This document shows positions 12,181 through 61,870 of a stretch of 64,000 nucleotides of DNA, piece after piece (within the stretch, counting starts at the first letter, position 1; each line of letters starts with the position of its first letter). The position numbers and the translations under genes are program-made. Under the pieces are notes generated by a model, which saw only the letters and a program-made list of their open reading frames with translations, did no database searches and was not told the origin of the DNA. This stretch comes from a bacterium (GTDB lineage Bacteria; Desulfobacterota; Binatia; HRBIN30; CADEER01): the NCBI GenBank assembly GCA_019637795.1, contig JAHBUY010000002.1:62001-126000 (forward strand), written 5' to 3'.

Positions 12181-12594
12181 GTGAACAGGATCGCCGCGGT
12201 TGCCATGGTCATCGCCGCCATCAGCCTCTCGACCGGCCCGGCGGCCGCCACGCTGTTGCAGTCCTGCTGCGCCTGCGTCAAAGGCGAACAGGCCCAGACG
12301 AGCGGCGCGTTCGGCGCCAACCCGCAGGTCTACTTCTGTGCCGAGGCGCAGCCGGGAGACATCCCGGGCCTCGAAGAACGGTGCGACGCGGTCTCCGACC
12401 AGAGCGGCACGCTGCACTGCGAGGCCAACATTCCCGGCCCGACCTGCCGCGCCCAGCTCGCCGACGGCGGTCTCTTCTGCCCGGCGGCCGGCGCGCCCGC
12501 CGCCGCTCCGTTGCCTCTTGCCGCGCTGGCCATCGCCCTGGCGATTCTCGGTGCCGCCACGGCGCACCGTCGCCGCCCCGGCGGCCGCGCCTGA
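12181..12594 (+). CDS. Eight-cysteine secreted protein, 'CCAC' family copy B
   Basis: 137 residues from a GTG at 12181 preceded by GGAGGGA (12169-12175, 5 nt spacing). Signal peptide (VNRIAAVAMVIAAISL), then 'SCCACVKGEQAQTSG'. Cysteine spacing is CCxC-x20-C-x14-C-x11-C-x8-C-x10-CP, matching copies A and C apart from one loop. The tail is 'AAGAPAAAP', a hydrophobic segment (LPLAALAIALAILGAA) and HRRRPGGRA. Its frame lies inside a longer open frame that upstream is antisense to nothing and overlaps the SDR in another phase, so the signal peptide decides the start. A TAAACG hexamer about 20 nt upstream could be a -10 element. Confidence 0.75.
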   Translation: MNRIAAVAMVIAAISLSTGPAAATLLQSCCACVKGEQAQTSGAFGANPQVYFCAEAQPGDIPGLEERCDAVSDQSGTLHCEANIPGPTCRAQLADGGLFCPAAGAPAAAPLPLAALAIALAILGAATAHRRRPGGRA

Positions 12595-52853: not shown

Positions 52854-52927
52854 GCGGGCGTAGCTCAGTTGGCTAGAGCGTATGCTTGCCAAGCATAAGG
52901 TCGCCGGTTCGACCCCGGTCGCCCGCT
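52854..52927 (+). tRNA. tRNA-Gly(GCC)
   Basis: 74 nt cloverleaf: acceptor GCGGGCG (52854-52860) pairs with CGCCCGC (52920-52926), D arm GCTCAGTTGGCTAGAGC, anticodon stem TATGC/GCATA with loop TTGCCAA, anticodon GCC at 52888-52890, and T arm GCCGGTTCGACCCCGGT. Discriminator T; CCA is not encoded. The 3' half is also the end of the integrase gene on the other strand, so it is the likely attachment site of the element to its right. Confidence 0.96.
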
Positions 52928-54231
52928 CTCGAAAGCCCCGCAATTCCAACGAGTTGCGGGGCTTCTTCTTTCTGGGATTCCGTGTCGCCGGTGGCTGGTT
53001 GCGGATAGGTTGCGGATGGTTGCGGGGCGTCGTCGAGTTGATCGAGCTGCGCCAGCCGGCGCTTGCGCGCTTCCGCGTCGCCCTTGATGAGGTGCCCGTA
53101 GCGCTCGAGGGTGAAGCTCGCCTTGTGGTGCCCGAGCTGCTGAGAGACGTACAGCAGCTCAACGCCGTCCTGCAGGAGCTGGCTCGCGTAGCCGTGGCGG
53201 ATGTCGTGAATCCGCACCTTCCGCAACTCAGCCGCAACCAAAAGCGGCTCGAACACCCGCTTGCGGAAGTTGTCGGGGTCGCCGGGGTCCTTGCCGTGGC
53301 TGAACACCCAGGCATCCAGGGCACCGGCCAGGTCGGCTTCGAGCGCCGCCTGCGCCTCGGCGTCGATGGCGACCACGCGCTCGAAGCGGTCCGCCCACAG
53401 CTCGCGCAGCACGGCCTGTAGCTGGGAGGACATGTCGACGCGCCGGGTCGCCCGCCGCCCCGCCCGGCTGCCCTTCGGGCTGACGATCTTGCCTTTCACC
53501 CAGGCGCGGTCGACGGTCAGGAAGCCGCCGGCAAAGTCGATGTCGCCCCACTTGAGCGCCAGCGCCTCGCCCAGGCGCAGGCCGGTGCGGGCGAGCAGCA
53601 AGAGGAACGGGTGGTGGTCGCGGTACGGGTACACCGTCTTGCCGTGCCGCTCGATCGCGTGCGTCTGCGCGGTGTGGAGGAGCTGCGCCGTCTCGCCGCG
53701 CGTCAGCGGGTCGATCTTCTTTGCCTCGGCGGGGAACAGCTTCTTCAGGCCGCGGGCCGGGTTGGTGGCAATGTGCTCGTCCTCGATCGCCTCCGAGAAC
53801 AAGCTCGATAGGGTCGCCAGCGTCTTCTGGATGTTCCGGCCGGACTTCTCCGCGGCCTGCAGCCCGTGAGCAAACGCCTTCACGTCGGCGCGCGTGATCT
53901 CGCCCAGGCGCCGCGGGCCGAGCACCGGCAGGATGCGGAGTCGGAAGCTGATCTCGTAGTCCTCGGCGGTCGTGGCCTTCCGCCGCCTCTCGATGCGGGG
54001 CAGGAACACCTTCGTGGCGTACTCCTCGAGCGTCGGCGTCGTCGCGGCCGGCTCCGGATCTTTGGGCACGATCCCCAAGTCGACCGCGGCCAGCCGCTCC
54101 TCGGTTCGCTTCCGCAGCTTCTCGGCTTCCTTCTTCTCGATCCGCCCGAGTCGCTTCGCCGTCCGCTTGCCGTGATGGTCGACAAACAGCCACCACTCGC
54201 CCGGCCGGCGCTCGCGCAGTTTCACCGCCAT
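52873..54231 (-). CDS. int: Tyrosine recombinase (site-specific integrase)
   Basis: 452 residues from the ATG at 54231. An N-terminal Arm-type region ('RRPGEWWLFVDHHGKRTAKR'), a SAM-like core-binding domain ('TTPTLEEYATKVFLPRIERR' onward) and the catalytic domain with the tetrad R ('LLARTGLRLGEALALKWGDI'), HxxR ('VRIHDIRHGYASQLLQDG'), H ('QQLGHHKASFTLERYGHL') and nucleophile Y in the same stretch. The last about 18 codons (ending LMLGKHTL) are written in the tRNA-Gly gene on the opposite strand, so the stop lies inside the tRNA. This is the usual sign of an element integrated at a tRNA 3' end. The start overlaps the next small gene by 3-4 bp (ATGA). Confidence 0.95.
   Translation of the reverse strand: MAVKLRERRPGEWWLFVDHHGKRTAKRLGRIEKKEAEKLRKRTEERLAAVDLGIVPKDPEPAATTPTLEEYATKVFLPRIERRRKATTAEDYEISFRLRILPVLGPRRLGEITRADVKAFAHGLQAAEKSGRNIQKTLATLSSLFSEAIEDEHIATNPARGLKKLFPAEAKKIDPLTRGETAQLLHTAQTHAIERHGKTVYPYRDHHPFLLLLARTGLRLGEALALKWGDIDFAGGFLTVDRAWVKGKIVSPKGSRAGRRATRRVDMSSQLQAVLRELWADRFERVVAIDAEAQAALEADLAGALDAWVFSHGKDPGDPDNFRKRVFEPLLVAAELRKVRIHDIRHGYASQLLQDGVELLYVSQQLGHHKASFTLERYGHLIKGDAEARKRRLAQLDQLDDAPQPSATYPQPATGDTESQKEEAPQLVGIAGLSRAGDRGRTGDLMLGKHTL
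52934..52963 (+). terminator. Intrinsic terminator of tRNA-Gly
   Basis: A 10 bp stem (AGCCCCGCAA at 52934-52943 with its complement at 52954-52963), a 10 nt loop and TCTTCTTT directly after. It also falls inside the integrase coding region on the other strand. Confidence 0.8.
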
Positions 54232-54392
54232 CAGCCCCTCCCCTTCCGCCGCCGCGGCTTCGTCGGCTGCGCGGCCTGCTCCTGCTCGCGGTTGATCGCG
54301 AGAACATCCCGGGCAAACGTCTCCAGCGCCTGCAGCAGCGCCGCCAGCGCCGGCGCGGGAACGGCGATCGTGCGCGTGGTCGCGGTCGCCAT
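54231..54392 (-). CDS. Small unknown protein upstream of integrase
   Basis: 53 residues, 'MATATTRTIAVPAPALAALL' then 'FARDVLAINREQEQAAQ' and a basic tail 'KPRRRKGRG'. It starts with an ATG overlapping the stop of the next gene upstream and ends overlapping the integrase ATG, so it is held in a coupled series. The helical Ala/Leu core and Lys/Arg tail suggest a small DNA-binding protein; an excisionase role would be guesswork. Confidence 0.5.
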   Translation of the reverse strand: MATATTRTIAVPAPALAALLQALETFARDVLAINREQEQAAQPTKPRRRKGRG

Positions 54393-54658
54393 CACTCCGC
54401 CTCCCTGGTCTTCGGCGGCTTGCAGCGCCAGCCGTGGATCTCGAGCACCGCCGCCAGCGTGTCCTGCGTGCACCGATACTCGGCATCGGCGATGAGCAAC
54501 TGTGCCCACGTCATGGCGAGGTCGTGCGCGACCTCGTCGCGGCGGTCCAGCAGCTTCGCCCACTTCTTTTTCCCATTGCGTCCTCCGTTGGCCCTTGGCC
54601 GGTTGTGTTTCGTGTGCGTGCGTGATACATCACGCGCACATGAGTAGCAAGCGCCCAT
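54392..54658 (-). CDS. Small unknown element protein
   Basis: 88 residues if the ATG at 54658 is used; the first about 30 residues (with 'CYSCARDVSRTHTKHNRP') overlap the dyad-rich control region, so the true start may be later. The convincing part is 'KKKWAKLLDRRDEVAHDLAM' and 'CTQDTLAAVLEIHGWRCKPP', helical and charged. The stop overlaps the next gene by 3-4 bp. Family unknown. Confidence 0.45.
   Translation of the reverse strand: MGACYSCARDVSRTHTKHNRPRANGGRNGKKKWAKLLDRRDEVAHDLAMTWAQLLIADAEYRCTQDTLAAVLEIHGWRCKPPKTREAE
54620..54635. promoter_or_regulatory. Operator-like dyad 1 in element control region
   Basis: GCGTGAT, AC, ATCACGC: a 7 bp inverted repeat containing TGATAC. Between the integrase-side genes and the divergent RHH gene. 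Confidence 0.4.
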
Positions 54659-55101: not shown

Positions 55102-55389
55102 TCACAGCTCCCGCACGTCCGGCACCCGCTGCCGATCCCGCCAGCGGTGCAGCAGGCGACGGCAGTTGGGTGGCACGCGGAAGCCGGTCAGCGTCTCCAT
55201 CTCGACGGCGCCCGGCCAGTCGCGCGTTTTGACCTGCACGAGAACCACGTCGGTCGACCCGATGCCGATCAAGTCCCACGCGCCGAGCGAGCCCGCGGCC
55301 CGCGTGACCGCATAGCCCGCCGCCTCGAGCAGCACGCGGCTGCGGTGCTCGTTGCGCGTGCCTTTTCGTTTCGCGTTGGGGAGCGCCAT
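55102..55389 (-). CDS. PD-(D/E)XK nuclease, Holliday-junction-resolvase-like
   Basis: 95 residues. 'KRKGTRNEHRSRVLLEAAGY' holds the first-helix Glu, 'VTRAAGSLGAWDLIGIG' the motif II Asp, and 'DVVLVQVKTRDWPG' the QxK of motif III, which is the order of archaeal-type Hjc and phage resolvase/endonuclease families. It would resolve or trim branched DNA before packaging or during replication. The ATG shares one base with the TerL stop (TGATG), so it is made with the terminase. Confidence 0.75.
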   Translation of the reverse strand: MALPNAKRKGTRNEHRSRVLLEAAGYAVTRAAGSLGAWDLIGIGSTDVVLVQVKTRDWPGAVEMETLTGFRVPPNCRRLLHRWRDRQRVPDVREL

Positions 55390-56789
55390 CAGAAGCCCGT
55401 CAGCCGGGCCAGGCCGCGGAAGCCCTCCCGGCGCCCGCCCGCCAGATAGGTCGCCATCGCGACTGCATTGGCCCGGTCGTCGTGGGCGCCCGGCCGATGG
55501 TCGACACGGTCCTTGCCGCCGAAGCCGCGTTTGCGCTCCAGGCCGCGCAGCTCGCGCAGCAACACCGGATCATGCGGCACCGTGACGGTGCCGGAGAGCA
55601 CGCGCGGTAGAAACTCGAGGTACAGCGCCGAGCGGTCCAACTCGCTCGGGATCAGCGACGCGCCAGCCCGCTCCGCGGCGCGCTGCGGGAATTGCGCGCC
55701 GTAGCGGTCGGCCGTGATGCGCTGGCACCCGTAGCGGCGGGCGAAGTCGACCAACTCGCCCATGACCGTCTCGGGATTGTGCGGCGCGGGCCAGGCGCGC
55801 ACCGCCGCCACCACGACCCGATCACCGTCACGGTACGCCACCGCCGCCGCGGTCGCGTCGCGCTGCCCGCCCGACACGTCGGCACCGCAGACGTAGGTTA
55901 CGCCGTCTCGCGGCGGCTGCTCCCGCCAGTCGGCCACGCAGCCGTCGAGCGCCTCGGGATCGAGCAGCGTCGCGAGACCCGCCCGGAACTCGCCCAGCAC
56001 CTCCGACCGGTAGGCGTCGGGGTCGTCGTCCCGCATCCGCTCAAGGTAGTCGGCTGGCAAGCCGTCGTGCATCGTCGTCGCCGACGCCTGCCAGACGAGC
56101 GTCGCCGAGTCCTCGCGGCCGAAGTGCCGGCGGTGCAGCTCCCAGAGCGCGCCCGCCTGCCCATACGGCGACGACAGCACCAGCAACCGCCCGCCCGTGG
56201 TCGCGAGCGCCGGCGTCAGCGCCCGCAGCATCTCGACGTCCACGGGGTTGCCGTCGCTGGCGCGGTAGAACGCCAGCTCATCGGCCACGGCAACTAACGC
56301 CCGGATGCCGCGCACCGCCGCCGGCCGGCAGGGATAGACGCCGATCGTCACGCCGTTGGCCAGCGTCAGCGCGTCCGCGGTGCGCCCGGTCACCATGCGC
56401 GCCAGCATCGGCACGCGCTCGAATGCCTGGCAGATGTAGCGGAAGGCGGCGCGCATCGAGCCGCGCATGTCCTGCGCGACCAGCACCGCGTAGGTGCCGT
56501 CCGCGCTGCCGTCCGCCGGCGCGGTGGCGGCGGTGTAGATCACGACGTCGCCGGCCGTCTGTGTCTTGCCGGATTGGCGGCCGGTGATGACCGCACCCGC
56601 CGGATAGCCGCCGGCCCGCGGCTGCTCGCGGCCCGTGCAGGCGCGGAAGAGCGCCAGCCCGTTGTCGTCGAGCGGCAGGCCGTAGAGTGCCCGCAACCAT
56701 GCATCCCACGCGCGCTGCGTCGCTGGGCGCCGCATGTGCGGCAGGCGCCCAAGTAGCTGCGGGTCGTGGCGGAAGTCGATGATGTCCAC
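55389..56789 (-). CDS. terL: Phage terminase large subunit
   Basis: 466 residues from a GTG at 56789. ATPase domain: Walker A 'VITGRQSGKTQTAG' (K75) and Walker B 'RALVAVADELAFY' (D170, E171), with the coupling motif 'LLVLSSPYG' at about 202-210. RNase H-like nuclease domain: D304 in 'YVCGADVSGGQRDATA', a second Asp in 'RITADRYGAQ' and a third in 'GAHDDRANAVAMATYL'. Both activities look intact. It packages concatemeric DNA into a procapsid, yet no portal or capsid gene lies beside it, which is the strongest hint that the element depends on a helper or that it lost these genes. Confidence 0.9.
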   Translation of the reverse strand: MDIIDFRHDPQLLGRLPHMRRPATQRAWDAWLRALYGLPLDDNGLALFRACTGREQPRAGGYPAGAVITGRQSGKTQTAGDVVIYTAATAPADGSADGTYAVLVAQDMRGSMRAAFRYICQAFERVPMLARMVTGRTADALTLANGVTIGVYPCRPAAVRGIRALVAVADELAFYRASDGNPVDVEMLRALTPALATTGGRLLVLSSPYGQAGALWELHRRHFGREDSATLVWQASATTMHDGLPADYLERMRDDDPDAYRSEVLGEFRAGLATLLDPEALDGCVADWREQPPRDGVTYVCGADVSGGQRDATAAAVAYRDGDRVVVAAVRAWPAPHNPETVMGELVDFARRYGCQRITADRYGAQFPQRAAERAGASLIPSELDRSALYLEFLPRVLSGTVTVPHDPVLLRELRGLERKRGFGGKDRVDHRPGAHDDRANAVAMATYLAGGRREGFRGLARLTGF

Positions 56790-58365: not shown

Positions 58366-58964
58366 GCGGGATCGTCTCCTGTGGTGTCGGCGGACACCTC
58401 GGCGTCGACCGCGGCCGCCTCGGCCGGCGGCGCAGCCTCGGCCGGCGCGGCAGCGGGCGCGGCGCGATCGCGCAGGTAGGCGTCGAGGTCCGGCACGTCG
58501 ACGGTCCGGTCTGGGCGCAGGCCGAGCGCCTGCAGCATCCGAGACAGCGACTGGACGTGGGTCACGTACCCGCGGCGCAGGATGGGCAGCAGCTCGCCGG
58601 CGTTGTCGACCAGGCGGTCGGCGTGGCCGAACACGTGTCCCTCAATCGTCGAGCAAATCAGCGCCGCCGCGGCGCAGCGGTCGATCAGCAGCCGCTCTCG
58701 CGCCGTCAGGCGGTCCAGCCCGCCGGCATCGGCGGCGAGGTCCTGTCGGAGGTCGGCCAGCGCCCGGGCAATCCAGGTGCGGCGGTCGAGGCTCCCGGCG
58801 GCGATGTGGCGGGCGAGCGAGCGGGCACCGCTCTTGAGCGGGGCGCCGGCGCGGCGGGGGCCGACGTCCTGCCGGCGGTGCCGCGAGCGTCCGCCGTCTC
58901 GGCCGCGACGTGGTGACTGCGCGGTGACCGGCCCATCATCGCCGGCGTAAGTAGGCGTCGTCAT
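58362..58964 (-). CDS. Unknown element protein (200 residues)
   Basis: Starts at the ATG 58964, overlapping the stop of the HTH gene upstream. A basic, disordered N-terminus (about 1-45) leads to a helical domain 'SLARHIAAGSLDRRTWIARA', 'GLDRLTARERLLIDRCAAAA', 'YVTHVQSLSRMLQALGLRPD' and an Ala/Pro/Glu tail (about 150-200). Domain layout and position resemble small phage-packaging or terminase-associated proteins, but nothing specific is recognisable. Confidence 0.55.
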   Translation of the reverse strand: MTTPTYAGDDGPVTAQSPRRGRDGGRSRHRRQDVGPRRAGAPLKSGARSLARHIAAGSLDRRTWIARALADLRQDLAADAGGLDRLTARERLLIDRCAAAALICSTIEGHVFGHADRLVDNAGELLPILRRGYVTHVQSLSRMLQALGLRPDRTVDVPDLDAYLRDRAAPAAAPAEAAPPAEAAAVDAEVSADTTGDDPA

Positions 58965-59317
58965 GCGGCTTTTTCCGCTCGATCCCCGATGCCATGCTCG
59001 GCACACTCGGAATCGAGCGCGGCGGTCAGCTCGGCGAGGCTGAATCGCCGGTAGCGACCGAACATCCGGTGCGGCAGCCGGCCGAGACGGCTCAGCTCGT
59101 TGATCGTCGAGACTGACAAGCTGAATCGCCGCGCCACCTCAGCGGCGGTCACCCACTCGCCGACCGGCGAGCTGCTGGGCGCCGCCGGCGGTGCGGTCAG
59201 CCGGGCGTGCAGACGCGCCTGCGTCGCCGCGCACGCGCCGATGGCGTCCGCCAGCTCGGCTCGCGGCAAGTCGCGCTCGGCCTGCTCGAGGGCGCGGCGC
59301 AGCTCCTCGAGGGTCAT
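58961..59317 (-). CDS. Helix-turn-helix protein, excisionase/MerR-like
   Basis: 118 residues. N-terminal helix pair 'LEELRRALEQAERDLPRAEL', then a winged HTH 'WVTAAEVARRFSLSVSTINE' with 'RLPHRMFGRYRRFSLAELTA', the HTH_17 excisionase-type domain. Its position between the origin-like array and small genes suggests a replication or excision control factor. Overlaps both neighbours by 4 bp. Confidence 0.75.
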   Translation of the reverse strand: MTLEELRRALEQAERDLPRAELADAIGACAATQARLHARLTAPPAAPSSSPVGEWVTAAEVARRFSLSVSTINELSRLGRLPHRMFGRYRRFSLAELTAALDSECAEHGIGDRAEKAA

Positions 59318-59859
59318 CGTCCCTCCTCGCCGACGATGCGCGAAGCATCAGCGGCCCCAGGGGCGCCGGTCGCGGGCCGGTCATCCGCCACCCGATCCCG
59401 CACCGCGAGCAACTCACCCACGGTCACTCGCCCACACCACGCGCGCCAGCTCGGCTCGCCCGCGATGGTCTCGCCGGCCACCTCGAGCGCGGGCCAGCCA
59501 CGGCGGGCGAGCCAGAAGAGCGCGGAGGAGAGGTCAGACCAGCGCGGGCGGTCGGAGGGAGCGAGCGGGCGCGGCGCCAGGAACGCGACTCGCGACGGCG
59601 TCCGGCGCGCCTCAGAATCGACGAAATCAGCCTGTGGATAACTTGCGGCGTGATCCGCGGGTGCGGATCGCTCTGATCCGCGCTGTGATCCGCAATCGTG
59701 ATCCGCAGGACCACGAGAAAACGTAGCATCGACAAGGGCCAGCAGCTCGGCTGATCCGCGCGTGATCCGCTGATCCGATCCGGCGGAGCCTCCGTGATCC
59801 GCTGATCCACCCTCTATAGGGTGGATCGCGGATCGCTGGATCGCGGATCGGTCAGTCAT
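59314..59859 (-). CDS. Unknown protein whose N-terminal half is coded by the iteron-like array
   Basis: 181 residues from the ATG at 59859. The first about 75 residues are repetitive ('TDRSAIQRSAIHPIEGGSAD', 'SDQRITRGSAELL', 'ADHDCGSQRG'), because they are written in the repeat array; the C-terminal half ('RPRWSDLSSALFWLARRGWP', 'GRVTVGELLAVRDRVADD') looks like a normal small domain. Overlap with the helicase gene is 8 bp and with the HTH gene 4 bp. It resembles the way the lambda O gene carries its origin iterons within the coding sequence. Function unknown. Confidence 0.55.
   Translation of the reverse strand: MTDRSAIQRSAIHPIEGGSADHGGSAGSDQRITRGSAELLALVDATFSRGPADHDCGSQRGSERSAPADHAASYPQADFVDSEARRTPSRVAFLAPRPLAPSDRPRWSDLSSALFWLARRGWPALEVAGETIAGEPSWRAWCGRVTVGELLAVRDRVADDRPATGAPGAADASRIVGEEGR
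59633..59849. other. Putative replication origin: DnaA box plus iteron-like array
   Basis: A perfect DnaA box (TGTGGATAA, i.e. TTATCCACA on the other strand) at 59633-59641. Then seven exact TGATCCGC copies starting at 59651, 59674, 59686, 59699, 59752, 59763 and 59795, two near copies at 59771 (TGATCCGA) and 59803 (TGATCCAC), and three inverted GCGGATC at 59663, 59828 and 59843. The array lies beside the helicase/primase gene. A mild AT-richer stretch (GAGAAAACGTAGCATCGACA) interrupts it at about 59715-59735. Confidence 0.6.
59804..59827. repeat. Perfect inverted repeat at the end of the iteron-like array
   Basis: GATCCACCCT, CTAT, AGGGTGGATC: 10 bp arms with a 4 bp centre. It may be a Rep/initiator binding site or a hairpin. 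It overlaps the last TGATCCAC copy. Confidence 0.6.
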
Positions 59860-61633
59860 CGTCACCTCCCGGGAGGTGTCCGGCAGCCTGGGCGAGGCGT
59901 CGATGGCGGGCGACGGTAGCGACGCCGACACTCAGCTCGGTGGCGATCTGGCGGTGGGTCATGCCGTCGCGGATCATCGCGGCGACGCGCTCGGTGAGGC
60001 AGTCATCGAGTGACCGCGATGCCCAGACGAGCCCGCCGCGGCCGTCGTCGGCGAGCGATACCTCGATCGTGCGGGCGTCGTCGCCGTGGACGCCGCGGCC
60101 CTTCTCGAGCGCCAGCTCGACCCGGGCGCCCTGCTCAGCGCGATAGTCGCGCGGGCGGCGGAGCGCGAGCACGGTATCGAGCACGTCCTCTCGGCGGCTG
60201 GTGCCGCGCTGCTGGCCGCCTTTGCCCGCGTGGTGAATCAACAGGACCGTGCGCCCAGCCCGGCGCTGTGCGAGCACCCAGCGCTGGAGCGGGAGCCACT
60301 CGTCGGCCTCACTCTCGGCGGCGCTGGTGAGCGTCGAGATGCTGTCGACGATGATCGTGTCGACGCCGTCGAGGTGCGGCGCGATGGCGCGCTGGCCCTC
60401 GGGGCGGGCGAGGTCGGGTAGCGGGCCGGGCTGCAGATCCGGCGTGATGATCCGCAGCATGTCCGGCTCGGGCGCGATCCGCGCGCCGCGGATGAGCTGG
60501 CGCAGGCGGTCGCGCATGGTGACGGCCGGCATCTCGCCGTCGACGTACAGCACGCGGCGCGGCTGCGGCGCCGACCAGCGCAGCAGTGCGGCGCCGGTGG
60601 CGATCGCCAGCGCGATCGACAACGTGAAGTACGTCTTGCCAGCGCCGCGGGGGCCATAGAGCATGGCGAGTCCCTGGGTCGGGAGCACCGGCGCCAGCAC
60701 CATCTCGCGGGGCGCGAGGTCGAGGGTCAGTAGCTCGGCGACGGTGACGACGCGCAGCCCCGGCGTCGCGGCATCCTCGCCCTGGCGCAGCCCGAGCCAC
60801 TCGCGCAGCCGCGCCACCACCGCCTCGCCGTCGGCGAGCAGCTCGGCGAGCCGCGGCCCGCCCGTGGCGGGGTCGCCCGCGGCGATGGCGGCGGCCGTGT
60901 CGCGCACGGCGCGCACTCGGTCGGCCACCTCCGGATCGCCGGCGACGCGCGCCAGCACGCCGATGATCTGCTCGGCATCCTGGGCCGCCATGCCGCCGCG
61001 CAGCAGTGTGCCGGCCAGCGCCAGGGCCACATCGTGGCGGGCACCGTCCGGCCAGCGGCGGGCGAGCATGGCGACGGCGGCGCACTGCCGCACGGCACGC
61101 TGGAGGGCGGCCACGGCGACGTGCGCTGGCTCGCCGGCGGCGTGCCACGTGATGGCCTCGCCGGTCGGGTGCGTCGACGGCGGCACGACGGTCTGACCGC
61201 CGCTCGACCGCAGCTCGATCAGCGTCACCGCACGGCCCTGCGCGTCGCGGGCGGTGGGGTCGCGCAGCCGCTCCGTCTGCGCCGGCGGCGCGTCGACCAC
61301 GTACCAGGCGTGCGACTCAGGCGATGACGCGCGGCCGTGGCGCATGTCGGTCGCGGGACCGAGCAGCGGCCACGCGGCCCGCGCATACGCGTCGTCGAAG
61401 TCGACATCGCAGAGCCCGCCAGACGGCGCGCCGCAAAGGATGCCGATGCCGCCGGCGCTGCCCACCTCGCGCTCGAGGTCGGCGCCCTGCAGGCGCAGGC
61501 GCTGCCAGCCGCGCAGGGTCGGCGCCTTCGCCGCGCGCCCGAGCGGCACGACCGACCAGCCACGCGCCACGTACTCGCGGGCCGCGGCGAGGATGGCGCT
61601 CGGCGCCTCGGCGCGGGCGGTGGCGGCGGTCAC
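59852..61633 (-). CDS. Primase-polymerase/RepA-like helicase fusion
   Basis: 593 residues from a GTG at 61633. The N-terminal Prim-Pol domain has 'YVARGWSVVPLGRAAKAPTL', the metal-binding DxD in 'GLCDVDFDDAYARAAW' (D76, D78) and 'SSGGQTVVPPSTHPTGEAI'. The C-terminal RecA-like domain is of the RepA/RSF1010 type: Walker A 'MLYGPRGAGKTYFTLSIALA' (K333), Walker B 'DTIIVDSIST' and 'LLIHHAGKGGQQRGTSRRED'. A small HTH closes the protein ('MTHRQIATELSVGVATVARH'). It should unwind and prime at the adjacent array. The gene overlaps the AlpA-like gene by 4 bp and the next gene by 8 bp. Confidence 0.9.
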   Translation of the reverse strand: MTAATARAEAPSAILAAAREYVARGWSVVPLGRAAKAPTLRGWQRLRLQGADLEREVGSAGGIGILCGAPSGGLCDVDFDDAYARAAWPLLGPATDMRHGRASSPESHAWYVVDAPPAQTERLRDPTARDAQGRAVTLIELRSSGGQTVVPPSTHPTGEAITWHAAGEPAHVAVAALQRAVRQCAAVAMLARRWPDGARHDVALALAGTLLRGGMAAQDAEQIIGVLARVAGDPEVADRVRAVRDTAAAIAAGDPATGGPRLAELLADGEAVVARLREWLGLRQGEDAATPGLRVVTVAELLTLDLAPREMVLAPVLPTQGLAMLYGPRGAGKTYFTLSIALAIATGAALLRWSAPQPRRVLYVDGEMPAVTMRDRLRQLIRGARIAPEPDMLRIITPDLQPGPLPDLARPEGQRAIAPHLDGVDTIIVDSISTLTSAAESEADEWLPLQRWVLAQRRAGRTVLLIHHAGKGGQQRGTSRREDVLDTVLALRRPRDYRAEQGARVELALEKGRGVHGDDARTIEVSLADDGRGGLVWASRSLDDCLTERVAAMIRDGMTHRQIATELSVGVATVARHRRLAQAAGHLPGGDDD

Positions 61634-61833
61634 GCGGCGGCCCCCTGCCGGGCGGCCAGCCAGGCGCGCACGTCAGCCAGCCGGTAGCGCACACATCGCG
61701 CCGTCAGGTGCACGGCCGGCGGTGCGATGCCGCGTCGCTGCCACGCGTCGAGGGTGCGCGGCGCGATGCCGAGTGTCAGGCACAGCTCGGCGCGCGAGAT
61801 GAGACGGTCAGCGTCGGGGTCGGTATGCGTCAC
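61630..61833 (-). CDS. AlpA-like helix-turn-helix protein
   Basis: 67 residues from a GTG at 61833. 'LISRAELCLTLGIAPRTLDA' forms the HTH, followed by 'WQRRGIAPPAVHLTARCVRY' and 'RLADVRAWLAARQ'. The HTH_17/AlpA type is common in excision and satellite control. It is the first gene of the main operon, with a TACCGT hexamer 9 nt before the GTG and a hairpin 35 bp upstream. Confidence 0.78.
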   Translation of the reverse strand: MTHTDPDADRLISRAELCLTLGIAPRTLDAWQRRGIAPPAVHLTARCVRYRLADVRAWLAARQGAAA

Positions 61834-61842
61834 GGTGCGTGC

Positions 61843-61870
61843 ACGGTAGCGCGCACGCCGGCAGCGTCAC
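61843..61870 (-). promoter_or_regulatory. Candidate promoter of the element's main operon
   Basis: GTGACG (61870-61865), 16 nt, TACCGT (61848-61843) on the minus strand, ending 9 nt before the GTG at 61833. An imperfect dyad (GTGCG...CGCAC) covers the -10. Confidence 0.35.

Follow-up and report, generated by a model that had tools for sequence, protein, structure and literature searches.

What does a dense array of short repeats do when it lies directly behind a primase–helicase gene and inside another open reading frame (ORF)? The question is raised by one locus in the 64,000-nucleotide stretch of bacterial DNA analyzed here, referred to in the following as the window. A sequence-only reading had listed a DnaA box, seven copies of the 8-mer TGATCCGC, near and inverted copies, and a 10-bp inverted repeat, and had proposed a probable origin adjoining the Prim-Pol/helicase gene. 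All of these repeats were found as described (Table 1). We consider it highly likely that a satellite-like element of ~10 kb has its replication origin in this array, and that the initiator encoded immediately upstream reads the 8-mer GCGGATCA through a helix-turn-helix (HTH) domain.

The array begins past the stop of the initiator gene at 59852, that is, 3' of it. The 10-bp inverted repeat forms the core of a four-site palindrome, a form also seen behind homologous helicases, in which inverted 8-mers are followed by the centre CTATAGAG and then by GTGGATCA GCGGATCA; the outer arms are imperfect in the window (outer left arm). Two groups of direct iterons follow, separated by a gap that makes a fairly weak duplex, and 59706–59735 belongs to the element's ten weakest segments of 30 bp. 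The weakest 30-bp duplex of the whole ~9.8 kb element is the candidate unwinding element, at the far end of the array.

Table 1. Coordinates of the repeat array and of the associated genes in the window.
Feature	Coordinates	Strand	Remarks
Excisionase/AlpA-like HTH gene	61630..61833	-	just upstream of initiator gene; PF12728 / phrog_66
Initiator: Prim-Pol + RSF1010-RepA-type hexameric helicase + C-terminal HTH	59852..61633	-	
Small ORF over array, 181 aa	59314..59859	-	ATG 59859, stop 59314
Whole repeat array	59633–59850		
Four-site palindrome	59795..59850	-	1–56 nt past helicase stop; contains inverted repeat 59804–59827
Perfect 10-bp inverted repeat	59804–59813 / 59818–59827		4-nt centre CTAT
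TGATCCGC, seven copies	starts 59651, 59674, 59686, 59699, 59752, 59763, 59795		last copy ends 59802
Near copies of the 8-mer	59771 (TGATCCGA), 59803 (TGATCCAC)		
Inverted GCGGATC	59663, 59828, 59843		
Direct iterons GCGGATCA, first group	59752..59778	-	
Gap between iteron groups	59707..59751	.	45 bp; fairly weak duplex
Direct iterons GCGGATCA, second group	59651..59706	-	59699, 59686, 59674, 59651 and inverted copy 59663
Candidate unwinding element	59614..59643	.	holds TTATCCACA
DnaA box TTATCCACA	59633–59641	-	sole TTATNCACA within the 64-kb window; 0.09 expected
Excisionase-like HTH protein	58961..59317	-	PF12728 / phrog_66
Large terminase subunit	55389..56789	-	phrog_2, E 3.2e-27
Holliday-junction-resolvase-like PD-(D/E)XK	55102..55389	-	weak: PF01870, E 4e-4, below curated cut-off
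Tyrosine integrase	52873..54486	-	phrog_1, E 4.9e-60; overlaps tRNA-Gly
tRNA-Gly	52854–52928	+	

The relevant genes all lie on the minus strand. The presumptive initiator matched Prim-Pol (PF09250, E 2.8e-17) and AAA_25 (PF13481, E 4e-30), and in the PDB it matched RepA by sequence (1g8y, E 1e-6). In an AlphaFold2 model, the helicase and the three helices of the HTH (about residues 542–583) were well predicted and the Prim-Pol half poorly; the best Foldseek match was again 1g8y, with a TM (target) of 0.78. The core of the RSF1010/IncQ RepA helicase family is thus present by both sequence and fold. An integrase gene overlaps a tRNA gene. A large terminase subunit is encoded, and no small terminase was recognised. 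No virion structural genes were recognised among the ORFs scanned, several of which have no assigned function, and for this reason we describe the element as satellite-like.

The same genome carries a second, diverged element (L064, contig C7), ~10.1 kb in length between perfect 40-bp direct repeats (2337–2376 and 12418–12457) at a tRNA-Leu gene. Its module is 89–94% identical to that of the window, and the two integrases share 26% identity; between the two elements the integration module has been swapped and the replication/packaging module retained. No right attachment site was identified for the window copy. We read the window element as a ~10 kb integrated, phage-satellite-like element.

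The density of the array is well beyond chance, as had been proposed. The 8-mer TGATCCGC is the most clustered of the window, with seven copies in 152 bp (log10 Poisson about −15), while unrelated 8-mers reach at most four copies per 217 bp. The frequency of the repeat elsewhere was checked as well. Genome-wide, there are 235 scattered copies of GTGATCCGC in 6,157,168 bp, from which ~0.008 would be expected per 217 bp; five were observed in the array. Two other candidates were rejected: a genome-wide dispersed repeat, in view of the 235 copies scattered over 6.16 Mb, and a transcription terminator, since no T run follows the palindrome.

The array was previously placed inside a coding gene. 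This holds in so far as it occupies the first half of the small ORF, which starts in ATGACTGA, in overlap with the helicase stop, with GGGAGGTG just upstream; it does not hold for the initiator gene. Might the repeats then simply result from a repetitive protein or from base composition, and be functionless in themselves? In both resident copies the small ORF is open, and beyond the array its reading frame resembles coding sequence, with the highest dS and the lowest dN (0.20 and 0.08, respectively). Within the array, however, dS between the two copies drops to 0.018 (one synonymous change in 57.5 sites), compared to 0.316 in the helicase gene, and from 59685 to 59827 there are no substitutions at all. 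The seven iterons are spread over ORF frames 0, 1 and 2, with three, three and one copies. When the first 75 codons were recoded synonymously in 5000 trials, the mean was 0.66 copies and the maximum four, so that no trial reached the seven observed. Moreover, distant helicases carry equivalent arrays, some of which have no overlapping ORF. These results show that the repeats are maintained as DNA rather than as protein; the by-product explanation is barely credible, and the frame, dS and recoding data refute it for practical purposes.

The protein had been described as correspondingly repetitive. Its repetitiveness is better seen as a consequence of the iterons, because these fall in three frames and the ORF has no homologue among 148 genomes of the class besides the two copies in this genome; nor did it match any family. 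The low divergence of the array could in part reflect recombination, because a stretch of ~200 bp over the HTH gene at 61630–61833 is likewise identical. In that region (61630–61850), the flanks differ by ~10% between the two elements, and the identity of the HTH gene reflects either recent exchange or strong constraint.

Relatives of the helicase were drawn from both genomes and viral contigs. Distant homologues from Pseudomonadota, Desulfovibrionaceae, Verrucomicrobiota, Chlamydiota and TM6 carry a cluster at the corresponding position. The recurring form consists of two tandem 8-mers, a centre of ~10 nt of the CTAG/CTTAAG type and two inverted 8-mers, then direct iterons, often 11–12 bp apart, and, after a gap of 40–65 bp, more copies. 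Examples are TGTACCGCTGTACCGC-ttcctaatgg-GTGGTACAGCGGTACA (L034), TGTCCCACTGTCCCAC-gcacctagggg-CTGGGACAGTGGGACA (L062) and, on a plasmid of Nitrobacter, TGTCCCGCTGTCCCGC-tcccctagggt-GTGGGACAGTGGGACA behind what remains of a helicase (L076). Each locus was compared with 36–787 control windows of its own, and for 23 of 49 loci the top-ranking cluster of exact 8-mers was the one directly 3' of the helicase stop, unmatched by controls. With helicases grouped into 24 clusters at 70% identity and one mismatch allowed, the 3' cluster ranked first in 13, and the palindrome 3' of the helicase ranked first in 14. About half of the homologous loci did not rank first in the automated tests; several of them are incomplete, carry frameshifts or run into the end of a contig. 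Of 20 clusters, 16 had CTA, TAG or TTAA in the palindrome centre, compared with a background of 11%. A very probable origin coupled to the Prim-Pol/helicase gene was supported by the persistence of equivalent arrays behind distant helicases and by the rarity of the repeat elsewhere in the genome, the two points on which the sequence-only reading could have been refuted.

The primase type varies, being a fused Prim-Pol in the window and a separate DNA primase in L058, while the palindrome stays, which marks the helicase–HTH protein and the palindrome as the constant part. No array was found near proteins sharing only the Prim-Pol domain (L068–L070). Among phage and plasmid records, no full-length homologue reached 80% query coverage.

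Several of these loci have further features of their own. In L062, the helicase–palindrome module is followed by genes for HNH, terminase, portal, protease, capsid and head–tail adaptor proteins, and the whole looks like a capsid-forming satellite or part of a prophage. On Nitrobacter hamburgensis plasmid 2 (L076, 6022–6471), a truncated helicase end and an intact palindrome lie beside CBASS defence genes. In L015, L016, L039 and L066, the ORF that overlaps the array just 3' of the helicase encodes a short shared peptide of the SLKALAxxVLxR type, which maps to the stretch separating the iteron groups; at that place the window ORF reads AELLALVDATFSR.

For the reciprocal search, 2.9 million viral contigs were scanned with palindrome patterns alone, regardless of the proteins encoded. 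A strict pattern matched four contigs, each just 3' of a helicase of this type. The helicase search had already yielded three of them; the fourth (L078) was new, with its helicase ending 167 bp upstream. A relaxed pattern matched 18 contigs; an AAA_25 protein ended within ~170 bp of the palindrome in 12, and none was found beside it in the other six. The GGTACA, GTGAGAC and TGAAACG types and the strict GGATCA type matched no viral contig. GGGAC-type palindromes lie in viral contigs L081, L082, L088, L091, L093 and L094 with no recognised AAA_25 helicase alongside, several of them with CTAAGG, CTTAG or TATATAGG centres. In L095–L098, the stop codon of a small terminase gene (phrog_4102 in L095) coincides exactly with a CTAG-centred four-site palindrome of the GGATC type. 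No RepA-type helicase was found near it, and it is perhaps a packaging or regulatory site. The palindrome type is therefore not exclusive to origins that adjoin a helicase.

Two features named by the sequence-only reading were not retained in the comparison. The DnaA box had been treated as a core feature. TTATCCACA is present in both resident copies, yet TTATNCACA is absent near the array in nearly all homologues, unlike in a DnaA-dependent origin with its conserved boxes. In the genome, TTATCCACA occurs five times and TTGTCCACA six times, none of them clustered, and the box consensus may not be that of this host. As for the suggested Dam sites, the homologous iterons read GGTACA, GGGACA, GGAACA and so on. 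GATC is incidental, since these equivalent iterons lack it.

The variation of the 8-mer is itself informative, because it changes by lineage in step with the recognition helix of the HTH. Among Desulfovibrionaceae, all ten initiators with Gln in this helix (SKGAIQR / SKAAVQR) are accompanied by GGTAC sites only, whereas all eight with His (SKSxxHR) are accompanied by GGGAC sites, either by themselves or together with GGTAC. On the core tree, well-supported branches require at least two switches of the Gln/His label. No such array was found with the homologous primase–helicases that lack this HTH (pATHE01 and Roseobacter phage CRP-810). Taken together, the covariation and the HTH-less homologues point to the fused HTH as the predicted reader of the 8-mer.

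We also considered that the array might be an operator or copy-number-control site for the downstream genes, bound by the initiator HTH or by an excisionase-like protein, with replication starting elsewhere. The downstream ORF has the palindrome at its start, genes for two excisionase-like HTH proteins lie next to it, and in iteron plasmids palindromic sites near initiator genes often serve autoregulation. However, an operator would need less than is seen here, with over ten sites spread across 200 bp, iterons in phase, and segments of weak duplex. The array also trails the helicase at loci that have another gene downstream, or one that begins only past the array, and the iteron sequence follows the HTH that is fused to the helicase. 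We regard a purely regulatory role as quite improbable.

For an origin, the comparison suggests the following model, in which 8-mer binding, unwinding, loading, priming and replication itself are what we infer from sequence. The C-terminal HTH of the initiator would bind GCGGATCA in both the palindrome and the iterons. The palindrome sites just past the stop codon, two inverted and two forward 8-mers around CTATAGAG, would nucleate assembly of the helicase, which the phased direct iterons would stabilize. The duplex would then open at the TA-containing centre of the palindrome, at the weak segment at the far end, or at both, and a RepA-type ring would be loaded, after which the Prim-Pol domain would prime synthesis.

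A rival to this model is that the palindrome acts as a single-strand hairpin for priming, of the RSF1010 ssi or pRN1 stem-loop type, with the iterons bringing in the protein and the primase recognizing the fold. In an automated palindrome test, the window palindrome came out at 10/15 and did not stand out, but it does stand out in folding, at −20.6 kcal/mol; z-scores for the strand range from −6.5 in the window to −10.8 in L067. In RSF1010, RepA-type helicases work with ssi hairpins. pRN1 requires an intact stem-loop (inverted repeat) just 3' of the Prim-Pol/helicase gene for ORF904 (PMC4234260). Against this, the palindrome arms are made of the same 8-mers as the iterons, so that duplex binding explains the symmetry without a hairpin, and the palindrome stays constant while the primase type varies. 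In addition, binding by SCCmec Cch2 requires the direct repeats, and the inverted repeat is dispensable (PMC7581432). We therefore consider a hairpin priming site unlikely, and prefer binding of the duplex 8-mers by the initiator.

How does the proposed origin compare with known systems? In SaPIs and PICIs, the origin lies immediately 3' of rep, two iteron sets flank an AT-rich region, and the C-terminal part of Rep recognizes the iterons (PMC6092414, PMC7581432). The window element resembles these in being an integrative, satellite-like element with its array right after the helicase stop, as in many homologues, and in having two iteron groups around a weaker gap, although its weakest segment lies at the far end instead. 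C-terminal recognition is here predicted from the covariation in Desulfovibrionaceae. With respect to whole PICIs, L064 spans ~10.1 kb between its 40-bp repeats and no structural gene was recognised among the window ORFs scanned, but no right attachment site was identified for the window copy, and the helicase-family homologue L062 carries portal, protease and capsid genes. Unlike in SaPIs and PICIs, the helicase is of the RSF1010-RepA type (AAA_25) and is fused to Prim-Pol and HTH domains; the DUF927 and D5-type Reps named in PMC7581432 belong to other helicase families. A CTAG/CTTAAG-centred four-site palindrome is also present, which is absent from the descriptions of SaPI/PICI origins compared here.

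RSF1010 oriV shares the RepA fold, the combination of iterons and inverted repeats, and a dedicated primase. There, however, iteron binding, helicase and primase reside in separate proteins (RepC, RepA and RepB'), whereas here they would be joined in one chain, and no RepC match was found among the neighbouring ORFs scanned. pRN1 ORF904 also combines Prim-Pol, helicase and a C-terminal DNA-binding domain in one protein (PMC4234260), but it differs in its SF3 helicase, its stem-loop of ~100 nt and its lack of iterons. In phage P4, the α protein likewise combines primase and helicase with a C-terminal domain for binding repeats at the satellite origin (PMC4234260); its primase is of the TOPRIM type, unlike the Prim-Pol in the window, and the likeness is drawn from the protein, not from the origin layout. 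The earlier likening to lambda O was set aside: in lambda the iterons lie inside the initiator gene, while here they lie 3' of it in the next, poorly conserved ORF, although both are in coding sequence.

The SV40 core origin contains four short sites, in two inverted pairs, that direct two opposed hexamers. By analogy, the four-site symmetry of the palindrome suggests a loading geometry with two opposed rings. Large T antigen, which forms the double hexamer (PMC9894130), is an SF3/AAA+ helicase, so the likeness is an analogy only. No description of this origin type was found in the open-access journal literature searched. In the window case, known themes of SaPI/PICI and pRN1 origins are combined with a helicase of a different class and with a centred palindrome that is conserved.

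A wider proposal, which we put forward tentatively as possible but doubtful, is that these loci represent a widespread and hitherto undescribed class of origins in satellites and phage-like elements. In it, an SF4 helicase of the RecA fold with its own HTH would be loaded, in the manner of T antigen, as two opposed hexamers on a CTAG-centred palindrome of four 8-bp sites right behind its gene, and the 8-mer and the HTH would have changed specificity jointly and more than once. If so, compatibility groups would be readable from sequence. The signature of a helicase–HTH gene, then a four-site palindrome, then phased iterons can serve to locate origins of many unannotated satellites and phage-like elements across phyla, and the paired recognition helices and 8-mers provide a natural data set on the evolution of initiator specificity. 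Should the palindrome indeed load two opposed hexamers, bacteria would have a simple equivalent of the T-antigen origin in which a single protein serves as initiator, helicase and primase.
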